Source: Desulfoluna sp. (GTDB lineage Bacteria > Desulfobacterota > Desulfobacteria > Desulfobacterales > Desulfolunaceae). Taken from it: a DNA stretch of 41,521 nucleotides. How positions within the stretch are numbered: position 1 is the first letter of the stretch; every line of letters begins with the position of its first letter. Both the position numbers and the translations under genes were made by a program. This document shows positions 14,172 to 16,830 of this stretch, in pieces. The notes beneath the pieces are model-generated. The model saw only the letters and a list, made by a program, of their open reading frames with translations, was not told where the DNA came from and made no database searches. The stretch is taken from contig NZ_JAQYWB010000050.1 of the NCBI RefSeq assembly GCF_030145185.1, positions 1-41,521 on the forward strand, written 5' to 3'.

Positions 14172-14208
14172 GGGGCGCGTCAGGGTCCCTGACGCGCCCC
14201 TCTTTTTT
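14172..14208 (+). terminator. Rho-independent terminator of yggL
   Basis: GGGGCGCGTCAG (14172-14183) pairs with CTGACGCGCCCC (14189-14200) around a five-base loop and is followed by tctttttt. The left arm overlaps the last codons and stop of the minus-strand gene ending at 14180. Confidence 0.85.
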
Positions 14209-14668
14209 GTCGATGAACCAGAAAAACATTCCCCAGCAGACTGAAACCAAAAAGAGCCCCCATCAACGGGGGAATCCGATGGGTCCCTTCCAGTACCGCC
14301 GTTTCCTGCAACGCCGTCTCTACCGCCACCTCGGCCCGGACCGCATGCCCTCTGCCATCGGTGACGAACACCCGCCACGTGCCCGTGTGATTCGGGATAA
14401 ACGCAAACCCACCCCGCTGGTCTGTCCGCCCATTCTGAAATTCCAGCTCGGCGTTTTCCGGAGAGAACACCGCCACAGAGCAATACGCCAACGGATCGCC
14501 GGTGGCATAATAAAACGAAAGAGACACGGCATCGGAGACCTCATGCCGGGTAAACCCGGTTCCATGCGCCAAGGCGTCACCACCCCCCCAGAGAAAAACC
14601 AGGCAAATCAGCCACACCATGCGTCGTAAGGCAAAGCGCTTCCGCATAAAAGCCGGCCCTGTCATCAT
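14180..14668 (-). CDS. NikL-like membrane-anchored accessory protein
   Basis: The 162-residue protein has an N-terminal signal or anchor (residues about 16-34, ending ALAHG), a small beta-rich Ig/carboxypeptidase-regulatory-like domain (GRTDQRGGFAFIPNHTGTWRVFVTDGRGH), and one C-terminal transmembrane helix near LMGALFGFSLLGNVFLV. This layout, next to a DUF4198 protein, resembles NikL, the companion of NikK in ECF-type nickel uptake systems. The His right after the putative signal cleavage (AHG) fits an N-terminal metal-binding site. Its start overlaps the upstream stop by four bases (ATGA). The rest of the transporter (NikMQO) is not in the window, so the nickel role is inference. Confidence 0.6.
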   Translation of the reverse strand: MMTGPAFMRKRFALRRMVWLICLVFLWGGGDALAHGTGFTRHEVSDAVSLSFYYATGDPLAYCSVAVFSPENAELEFQNGRTDQRGGFAFIPNHTGTWRVFVTDGRGHAVRAEVAVETALQETAVLEGTHRIPPLMGALFGFSLLGNVFLVHRQKRGARQGP

Positions 14669-15441
14669 CCCACCCCAAACACGAGAACGGCACGAATGAC
14701 ATGTTTGTCATATTCTGACGTGGGGACCTCTTCCTTCTTCTCCACCCGAATCATCCAGGTCCCGTCATGGGTGACCTTTATCCTCGCGAGCCCGTCTGCC
14801 CCGGTTGTGCTGTAATATGCGTAGGTATTGGGATCCCCGGAAAATCCGTCATACGTGGCCAGGATTTCGGTGGCCAGAGGCTTGCCCTTGTAAAGCACCT
14901 TCACGATCAGCTCCTCACCGGGGGCCACCGACGCAGGGTCTGTGACAGGGATAATTTCAAGGGCCTGTCCAAGCACCTTGGCGTAGCCCTTGTCAGGATG
15001 CCCGGAGGTCACCAGGGTCTTGCAGAATTTTTCGTACTTGCCGCTTTCGATCACCCCTTTGCACGCGCTCTTGGGGGCCTGCTTCCACCCGGAGGTGGTC
15101 TGGGTCCAGATCACCCCTTTTCGATGGCCACTGAGGATCGCGGTCCCTTCACCCGCCAGGGAGACAGCCCCGTCAAGTGTCATCAGAGTCGCGTTTTCCG
15201 TCAGGGAGACCGGCGTCTCTCTGTCGTTGGAAACCAGCCCCACCGACACGCTGGCCAGGGGTTCCACCTCTTCACTCACCATAAACACATGGGCGGAAAG
15301 GACACTGAAGGGGAGCGTCTCACCCATAGCAGCCGTGTTTTTTACCGGCTTGATAATGAATTCGTGGGCGCTGAGGCTCGCAGCAAAGACAAAACAGCCC
15401 ATAAAAACAGCCAAAAAAACAAGTCGATTGCACCGTTTCAT
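14665..15441 (-). CDS. DUF4198 (NikK-like) periplasmic metal-uptake protein
   Basis: The 258-residue protein begins with a signal peptide (MKRCNRLVFLAVFMGCFVF, cleavage near SLSAHEF) and places a His at the mature N-terminus. The DUF4198 body follows, ending with KVTHDGTWMIRVEKKEE, the family's closing strand motif. DUF4198 proteins accompany cobalt and nickel uptake systems. The start at 15441 has a perfect ggagg five bases upstream; an in-frame ATG at 15522 would run through the leader hairpin and spoil the signal peptide. The gene is translationally coupled to the downstream NikL-like gene. Confidence 0.75.
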   Translation of the reverse strand: MKRCNRLVFLAVFMGCFVFAASLSAHEFIIKPVKNTAAMGETLPFSVLSAHVFMVSEEVEPLASVSVGLVSNDRETPVSLTENATLMTLDGAVSLAGEGTAILSGHRKGVIWTQTTSGWKQAPKSACKGVIESGKYEKFCKTLVTSGHPDKGYAKVLGQALEIIPVTDPASVAPGEELIVKVLYKGKPLATEILATYDGFSGDPNTYAYYSTTGADGLARIKVTHDGTWMIRVEKKEEVPTSEYDKHVIRAVLVFGVG

Positions 15442-15485
15442 ACCATCCTCCAAAAAAGAAATTGGGTTTATAAAAAACAAAAAAG

Positions 15486-15536
15486 GCCACGACGGGATGA
15501 CAGACCGCTTGTTGCGGTGCATCAGCCTTCGTGGCC
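15486..15536 (-). promoter_or_regulatory. Leader hairpin and T-run upstream of DUF4198 gene (attenuator candidate)
   Basis: Read on the minus strand: ggccacga, then gatg c accgc, loop aacaa, gcggt ctgt catc, then tcgtggcc, directly followed by ttttttg. Three nested stems stack into one interrupted hairpin with an intrinsic-terminator tail, about 45 nt before the start codon. No gene on the minus strand lies upstream within reach, so it sits inside the leader of this transcript. It could be an attenuator or the platform of a metal- or ligand-sensing RNA. It matches no riboswitch consensus I know. Confidence 0.5.
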
Positions 15537-15655
15537 AGACGTTTTTCCTTTTCAGCCCCTCTCCAAACCCAAGGGACGATCCTGCATGCCGAACTTTTTC
15601 TTTTTGAAACCTGCGGGTTCCGATTACTTAATTTACTCTCACAACAGCATTAGCC

Positions 15656-15661
15656 TGTCAA
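15656..15661 (-). promoter_or_regulatory. Candidate -35 box for DUF4198 transcript
   Basis: On the minus strand a perfect ttgaca is followed at about 18-20 bp by agtaaatt, an A/T-rich but imperfect -10. It would start transcription about 190 nt before the gene, upstream of the leader hairpin. Confidence 0.3.
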
Positions 15662-15864
15662 CTGTTTTCATACACAAACAATAAAGTTACGGCCGCTAAT
15701 ACCTCGTCTGATCTCTCAAATTTTCATCCACACAACTCAGTTCCTCATCACATCCGGGTACATTTTTCTTCAAAAATCCTGTATAGAGCGGTAGGTTCCA
15801 ATTACTGCGGTGAGACCTTGCGCTGCGCAAACCGTCTTCCAACTCCATGCCATAGAGGTCGAAA

Positions 15865-16830
15865 ATGAAAAAGAGTCTCCCTGGGGTCACGCCCCGCATC
15901 TGCGCGCTCCTGATTTTACTCCTGCTCGGAATAACAGGCCACGCAGCCCATGCCGCCCCCCCCACCCTTCGGATCGCCCTGCTGCCCATCCCCGATGTCC
16001 TGCCCGTCTTTGTCGCCCAGGAAAAGGGCTACTTCGCCGACGCCGGCATTCGGGTGGAGACCCTCTCCGTGGGCAGCGCCCTGGAACGGGATCAGCTCAT
16101 GCAGGCAGGCCGCATTGACGCCATGGTTAACGAAATGGCCGGAACGGCAAGCTTCAACAGGAACACGGTCCGCATGAAGATCGTGGCCGTGGCCCGGGCA
16201 CCGAAAGGGGCCTCCCCCCTCTTCCGCATTCTTTCGAGCCCCACCTCAGGGATCACCACCCCGGACCAGCTTAAAGGGGTGCCCATCGCCGTCTCCAAAA
16301 ACACCGTCATTGAGTACCTCACCGACCGGCTTCTTCAGGAAAAAGGATTCTCCAAGCGCGAGATCGTAAAAAAATCGGTCCCGGTGCTGCCCGAGCGGAT
16401 GCAGCTCCTCCTCTCAGGCCAGATCAAAGCGGCCACCCTGCCCGACCCTCTGGCCTTTGCGGCCATGAAAGCCGGAGCCCATGTGGTTCTGGATGACACC
16501 CACGCCCCCTTTTACAGCGCCAGCGTCCTCTCGTTCAGTGCCGAAACCCTGGCGGCAAACGAACCTGCGGTAAAGGCCTTTATCAGCGCCTGGATGAAAG
16601 CGGCGGCGGACCTCAATGCCGATCCGGAGAGCTTCCGGCCCCTGATGCTGAAAAAAATCCGTGTGCCCAAAAACGTCCATCAGAGCTTTTCCATCCCCCC
16701 CTTCCCCATCGACACCGTGCCCACCCGGGCCCAGTGGGAAGACACCATGGCATGGATGGTGGATAAAGGCCTGCTCAAAGCGCCCCTTTCCTATGAACCC
16801 TCTGTTGTCCCCTCCGGGACCCGGGAGTAA
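15865..16830 (+). CDS. ABC transporter substrate-binding protein (NMT1/SsuA-like)
   Basis: The 321-residue protein has a signal peptide (LLILLLLGITGHAAHA) and then PTLRIALLPIPDVLPVFVAQ, the first strand and helix of the NMT1/THI5/SsuA periplasmic-binding fold. KGYFADAGIRVE, GRIDAMVNE and LKGVPIAVSKN follow the standard order. Such proteins bind sulfonates, pyrimidines, nitrate or other small organics; the ligand cannot be told from sequence. gaggtcgaaa precedes the ATG. It is the first gene of a three-gene transporter operon. Confidence 0.9.
   Translation: MKKSLPGVTPRICALLILLLLGITGHAAHAAPPTLRIALLPIPDVLPVFVAQEKGYFADAGIRVETLSVGSALERDQLMQAGRIDAMVNEMAGTASFNRNTVRMKIVAVARAPKGASPLFRILSSPTSGITTPDQLKGVPIAVSKNTVIEYLTDRLLQEKGFSKREIVKKSVPVLPERMQLLLSGQIKAATLPDPLAFAAMKAGAHVVLDDTHAPFYSASVLSFSAETLAANEPAVKAFISAWMKAAADLNADPESFRPLMLKKIRVPKNVHQSFSIPPFPIDTVPTRAQWEDTMAWMVDKGLLKAPLSYEPSVVPSGTRE

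Follow-up and report, generated by a model that had tools for sequence, protein, structure and literature searches.

An apparently undescribed leader-RNA family before nickel/cobalt-type uptake genes of sulfate reducers, with a proposed antitermination switch

The minus-strand leader of a DUF4198 gene in Desulfoluna sp. is probably an attenuator of a new family, a factor-dependent antitermination switch for transition-metal uptake, most likely of nickel and/or cobalt. It lies in a 41,521-nucleotide stretch of DNA (the window; contig NZ_JAQYWB010000050.1 of the genome called G000 below), and comparison with other genomes places it in what is apparently a large and undescribed family of leader RNAs that precede nickel/cobalt-type uptake genes of sulfate reducers. 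At the level of sequence comparison four things are established: a conserved predicted terminator, a 5'-end hairpin (P1) coupled to both the putative promoter and the terminator, a 5' arm that the terminator shares with a second small hairpin (P2), and the kinds of gene that follow. We found no description of the element in the open-licence literature, including the available portions of PMC3369931, PMC545781, PMC2864571, PMC8620254 and PMC11247825.

The leader in the window and its closest relatives

The terminator hairpin occupies positions 15485–15536 of the minus strand, with an outer stem formed by GGCCACGA (15536–15529) and TCGTGGCC (15492–15485), whose covariation over 115 distinct family rows is taken up below. 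In the minimum-energy fold its inner stems are ACCGC/GCGGT and TGATG/TGTCA; the outer and ACCGC/GCGGT stems had been recognised by an earlier sequence-only reading of this DNA, and the gatg/catc inner stem that the same reading proposed gives way to the TGATG/TGTCA pairing. The apical stem-loop of this fold (ACCGC-AACAA-GCGGU, 15504–15518) does not have the loop ending in GAA that is found in other family members. A 65-nt piece carrying the hairpin folds with −30.2 kcal/mol (z −4.6), a value equalled by none of 200 dinucleotide shuffles; the stability of the 196-nt leader overall is ordinary (z −0.94), and what distinguishes the window leader is the hairpin itself and the fact that it is conserved elsewhere. 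A simple promoter/terminator scanner called neither a promoter nor the terminator of this leader.

The hairpin runs into a U tract, TTTTTT at 15484–15479, which lies 37 nt from the DUF4198 start codon at 15441 (the sequence-only reading had put the distance at about 45 nt). A GGAGG ribosome-binding site (15447–15451) precedes the DUF4198 gene (14665–15441; PF10670, E 2.9e-39), which is followed on the same strand by a NikL-like gene of uncertain start (14180–14668; NF058648, E 2.8e-11, 43.7 bits against a curated cut-off of 100). At 14172–14200 there is also a strong plus-strand terminator (13 pairs) behind a YggL-type gene. Upstream of the leader the nearest plausible gene (at 15865) lies on the opposite, plus strand, which bears out the earlier view that no gene precedes the hairpin on its own strand. 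The TTGACA that had been pointed out upstream is present at 15661–15656 (minus strand) and is a likely −35 box; we found no convincing −10 sequence for it in the window. No match at gathering score was returned by a scan of the window against Rfam 15, and around the leader only chance-level matches appeared at E values up to 10, in agreement with the statement that it resembles no known riboswitch.

Neither the two smaller hairpins, P1 and P2, nor the wider family figured in that reading. P1 (GGAACC-CGCA-GGUUUC, 15606–15621, minus strand) begins 40 nt after the TTGACA, the usual distance in the family, and is common to four Desulfoluna-type leaders, where its loops are CGCA, UGCA, UGCA and UGUA. 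A linker of 69 nt (15537–15605; 70 nt if counted to the G of GCC) separates it from P2 (GGCC-ACGAA-GGCU, 15524–15536), the proposed antiterminator, which fits the family consensus GCC-ANGAA-GG(C/U).

A DNA search found the leader in three genomes of the same genus (G002, G006 and G004), and in their alignment the TTGACA, the palindrome GAAACCTGCAGGTTTC or variants of it, the hairpin and the T tract are all kept. A hairpin with an identical GGCCACGAAGGCT arm also stands before an operon for a FecCD permease, an ATPase, a methyltransferase and a binding protein in G000, G002 and G006, and G000 has a further covariance match upstream of ExbB-ExbD-TonB. In one G002 locus (contig C3; L041:6259-6460) P1, P2 and the terminator are intact and all that is left of the DUF4198 gene is its start and last 35 codons. 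The proposal of a built-in stop signal gains from the retention of hairpin and U tract in the three same-genus leaders and throughout the wide family, and the structure, whose lack of conservation had been named as one of two outcomes that would count against the proposal, is conserved in relatives and family alike.

P1, P2 and the terminator arm across the family

Family members have a common anatomy: TTGACA, about 40 nt, P1, an A-rich linker, and P2 overlapping the terminator. For the measurements on P1 a scanner collected 161 elements, of which 148 were left after overlapping and opposite-strand calls had been dropped and 147 had enough upstream sequence. A hairpin with a 4–5 nt loop ending in GAA and at least five pairs occurs within 130 nt upstream in 96 of these 147 leaders, compared with a mean of 4.45 and a maximum of 7 in 20 dinucleotide-shuffled sets; GAA ends the loops of 98 upstream hairpins and the next-best ending, AAA, those of 12. 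The P1 loop is usually (A)NGAA, mostly AGAA, UGAA, AAGAA or AUGAA, and the CGCA of the window is not of the commonest type. Under a looser NGNA loop rule, within 200 nt upstream, P1 is found in 122 of 147 leaders and is missing in 25.

P1 is tied to the promoter box by its spacing. Of the 122 leaders with a P1, 84 have a TTGACA-like sequence (one mismatch allowed) that starts 37–45 nt upstream of it. ACAGTT was spoiled as a spacing control by its overlap with ACAGTTGACA, and motif-linked TTGACA was compared with other TTGACA instead: in the loci used, an exact TTGACA is followed at 34–48 nt by a P1-type hairpin in 52 of 87 motif-linked cases and in 4 of 397 others, and these four exceptions are three full copies of the motif that the scanner had missed and one cut by the end of a contig piece. 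A spacing of about 40 nt means that the transcript should begin right at P1, and the position of the TTGACA in the family makes it probable that transcription starts upstream of the terminator; a start downstream of the hairpin was the other outcome that the sequence-only reading had named as counting against its proposal. Beyond P1 the linker to P2 has a median length of 53 nt (quartiles 38 and 87), and no conserved sequence was found in it other than A/T-rich words. P1 is rarer outside the class (4 of 14 true-looking placements examined), and the scanner rule found none in the CbiM leaders L201–L203, L239 and L256.

The 5' arm of the terminator reads GCCA-N-GAA followed by GG(C/T); in 161 arms the N position is C in 130, T in 14, A in 8 and G in 6, the remainder being shorter arms. 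Its outer stem is formed in 97.0% of cells over the 115 distinct rows, and three of its pairs vary in both partners, the basal one (AU/GC/CG) and that of the N position (CG/UA/AU) among them. The covariation score of this stem is 0.188 against 0.119 when shuffled, in an alignment that was itself fitted to the stem, and 188 of 500 shuffles also give three doubly changed pairs. The GGC after GAA is kept although it has no fixed partner in the terminator; with ANGAA as the loop, it can pair with the arm's GCC. This alternative pairing is P2, whose 5' strand is at once the 5' arm of the intrinsic terminator. Counted alone, P2 is paired in 92.0% of cases against 90.8% after shuffling, its two doubly changed pairs are equalled in 213 of 500 shuffles, and the stem extends past GCC/GGC no further than it does with shuffled partners. 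In four rows, from genera g28, g16, g20 and g31, the first base of the arm is A and not G, and in all four there is a T/U at both of its alternative partners; this three-way change and the stepwise folding of growing window transcripts, in which P2 forms first and the terminator later, speak for P2 as the proposed antiterminator.

A loop ending in GAA also caps the apical hairpin of the terminator in 60 of 241 elements, where simple shuffles give 1.9, with no trade-off between this hairpin and P1 (p 0.63), and some leaders have as many as three (A)NGAA hairpins. Such repeated, freely spaced hairpins look like the sites of a multimeric protein, as far as comparison of the leaders can tell.

Distribution, downstream genes and NikR

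A first pattern, GCCACGAAGGCT-N15-44-GTGGC, matched 65 of 291 genomes of the class, and its reversed control matched 8 of 291; five of 30 pattern loci that were opened (L044–L046, L057 and L058) have no terminator-like tail, so the 65 include false matches. One of them, L044 (G246), has tandem, partly palindromic GCCACGAAGGCTCTTTGTG repeats unrelated to the leaders. A covariance model, R1, built from 20 pattern matches with only the outer stem written in by hand, gave matches in 137 of 192 class genomes (E 0.01 per genome) and in 61 of 247 phylum genomes (E 0.001). Named matches (at least 117 stretches, with titles for 80) are mostly from Desulfobacterales and their relatives, and others among those listed come from Syntrophales, Nitrospirota, a few Clostridia, Synergistales and other groups. 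Five phylum matches of 37 nt (in G311, G411, G413, G438 and G509) look false, and the two opened show the same plain hairpin: in L309 and L310 (from G311 and G413) a near-identical hairpin, GGCCACAAAGACTTTTGACTTTGTGGCC, mimics the motif in the covariance search, and in L309 it precedes a cold-shock-like ORF.

For the 143 leaders that have an ORF behind them we examined the first downstream gene, its label being transferred by BLAST from members checked against Pfam. In 84 of the 143 this gene is a TonB receptor or plug, DUF4198, FecCD, FecB, ExbB, DUF3450 or an ABC ATPase. The individual counts are TonB receptors 25, plugs 3, DUF4198 18, FecCD 15, FecB 11, a family without a Pfam name 10, FmdE 9, porin-like 6, ExbB, DUF3450 and DUF3842 5 each, methyltransferases 3, ABC ATPases and ChlI-type 2 each, TrmO, a tetrapyrrole methylase and an amino-acid-permease-like gene 1 each, and other genes 21. 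Behind named matches we further found CbiM (checked in L202, L203 and L216), a DUF4198 gene in a Synergistales record (L271) and, in L231, a protein distantly like nickel/cobalt efflux permeases; CbiK and CbiQ are present in regulon loci. The FmdE and porin-like genes give no specific pointer to nickel. Two CbiF-like tetrapyrrole methylases of the regulon (L117:6321-7175 and L083:1434-2282) begin with a signal-peptide-like stretch, and a periplasmic location would be odd for them. LarE makes a nickel cofactor, and in two Clostridia-type MAGs a LarE gene scoring above the cut-off (L195:1168-1938 and L240:3352-4122) is preceded by a motif-like terminator with no P1; these terminators may reflect chance or a distant family member.

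The family is found mostly where the nickel repressor NikR is missing. NikR_C was detected in 5 of 192 class genomes and not found in G000; four of those five also have a motif match. NikR occurs in 110 of the 247 genomes of a phylum sample and the motif in 61; the two coincide in 7 (odds ratio 0.10, p 4e-10, shared ancestry uncontrolled). Five of the seven genomes with both owe their motif to the 37-nt matches, and neither of the two opened is this element; without these five, NikR is found in 2 of 56 motif genomes (p 2e-14). Families f69, f70 and f104 each contain genomes with the motif and genomes with NikR but no genome with both, and f97 has two genomes with both. NikR sites lie ahead of nikMQO and nikK in other delta-proteobacteria, where NikR controls DUF4198/NikK-, NikL- and NikM-type genes, according to the available portions of PMC545781; the gene kinds are thus shared, whereas NikR is a DNA-binding protein and the present element a leader RNA. 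The exact NikR site (GTGTTAC-N13/14-GTAACAC) is absent from 308 loci, and its N13 form is absent from the window even with up to three mismatches; with no such site, and no NikR_C found in G000, control of the element through a NikR operator was rejected. A metal link, which the sequence-only reading had raised for this leader, is thus favoured by the downstream genes of the family and by its avoidance of NikR.

Proposed mechanism and competing explanations

In the mechanism we favour, polymerase would start about 40 nt after the TTGACA and make P1 and then P2 (GCC-ANGAA-GGC). Where P2 is left unheld, the 3' arm would take over its 5' strand and form the intrinsic terminator before the gene; a trans-acting factor that recognises the (A)NGNA loops would grip P1 and P2 together, so that P2 persists and transcription continues. 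What the family would control in this way is transition-metal uptake, most likely that of nickel and/or cobalt, with nickel as the presumed signal, and control of metal uptake leads one to expect antitermination when the metal is scarce. More tentatively, and at somewhat less than even confidence, we suggest that dozens of leaders are read, through (A)NGNA loops at their 5' end and terminator, by a hitherto unrecognised RNA-binding regulator that fills the role of NikR in Desulfobacterota and in some neighbours such as Nitrospirota.

The closest parallel in plan is with the ANTAR target RNAs (the eut, nas and ami leaders), which likewise have two small hairpins with conserved loops, the second overlapping the 5' arm of a terminator; as described in the available portions of PMC3369931, their loops are hexaloops with A1 and G4 and their linkers are 5–12 nt long (14 nt has been tested), whereas the element has (A)NGNA loops of 4–5 nt and a median linker of 53 nt that exceeds the tested length. 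The presence of ANTAR genes shows no association with the motif (83 of 137 genomes that have it, 34 of 55 that do not, p 1); G025, with eight motif matches, is one of the 54 motif genomes (of 137) in which no ANTAR match was found, and in G000 there is one. CsrA-regulated leaders have GGA in their hairpin loops, and CsrA bridges such loops, which makes it the other known regulator to consider for tandem hairpins; the element's loops end in GAA; of 192 genomes 72 have CsrA, and G012, a single contig with six motif matches, is not among them. That either ANTAR or CsrA binds these hairpins seems to us extremely improbable, and the element is a case of leader-RNA attenuation on an ANTAR-like plan, but with other loops, other genes and no known factor. 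Two further candidates were set aside. DUF3842 is present in 131 of 137 motif genomes and in 41 of the 55 without the motif (p 6e-5; ancestry uncontrolled, and 4 of 24 negatives missing from the list), and its tracking is imperfect, G113 lacking it in spite of six motif matches. FmdE with a DksA/TraR-type zinc finger, as in the element-linked proteins L048:255-1247 and L115:6491-7246, is not a satisfactory factor either: FmdE has no clear association with the motif, and at least 12 motif genomes are without it, a count from which 5 of 25 negatives are missing.

The main rival to a protein reader is a ligand-binding RNA, in which P1 and P2, sometimes with the apical hairpin, form a pocket for a small ligand or metal ion with no protein involved. 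The strong conservation of the loops and the imperfect tracking of every protein family tested speak for it, and guanidine-II (mini-ykkC) RNAs provide a protein-free precedent, with tandem hairpins, a variable linker and similar ACGR loops that pair with each other. The element shares the tandem similar loops and the variable linker and differs in working at a terminator, in having no Rfam match and in having no CG pairing between loops: any base may precede GAA, and the combination of A in P1 with C in P2 occurs in 46 of 112 leaders, which means that guanidine-II-type loop pairing is not kept and led us to reject loop–loop kissing. The wide range of linker lengths, the use of either 4 or 5 loop nucleotides and the conservation of nothing but A/T-rich words between the hairpins also count against a common pocket, and we consider a riboswitch unlikely; NiCo and cobalamin riboswitches, which resemble the element as leaders for a metal or a cobalt cofactor, gave no match at gathering score. 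A signal other than nickel, such as a corrinoid or tetrapyrrole, iron or molybdenum, is a real possibility that on balance we doubt. CbiK, the tetrapyrrole methylase, the ChlI-type chelatase, FmdE and many FecCD and TonB genes in or near the regulon would suit it; against this, the only Rfam match in eight scanned regulon loci was a separate, standard cobalamin riboswitch (L110) away from the motif copies, and the DUF4198/NikL, CbiM and LarE genes favour nickel, as does the exclusion of NikR. Lastly, terminators are common, and G002 keeps its leader though the DUF4198 gene is mostly gone, as might be expected of a plain unregulated terminator or small-RNA end with P1 as a mere 5' stabiliser; the fixed 5' arm, the coupling of P1 to promoter and terminator and the restriction to one kind of gene make this very unlikely.

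Most genomes of the class carry nickel/cobalt-type uptake genes yet have no detected NikR, and a common RNA element of defined anatomy makes the control of these genes testable. The element can be used to trace a metal regulon in uncultured sulfate reducers, points to a regulator that has still to be recognised, and gives functions to hunt for in the DUF4198, DUF3842, DUF3450 and FmdE genes.
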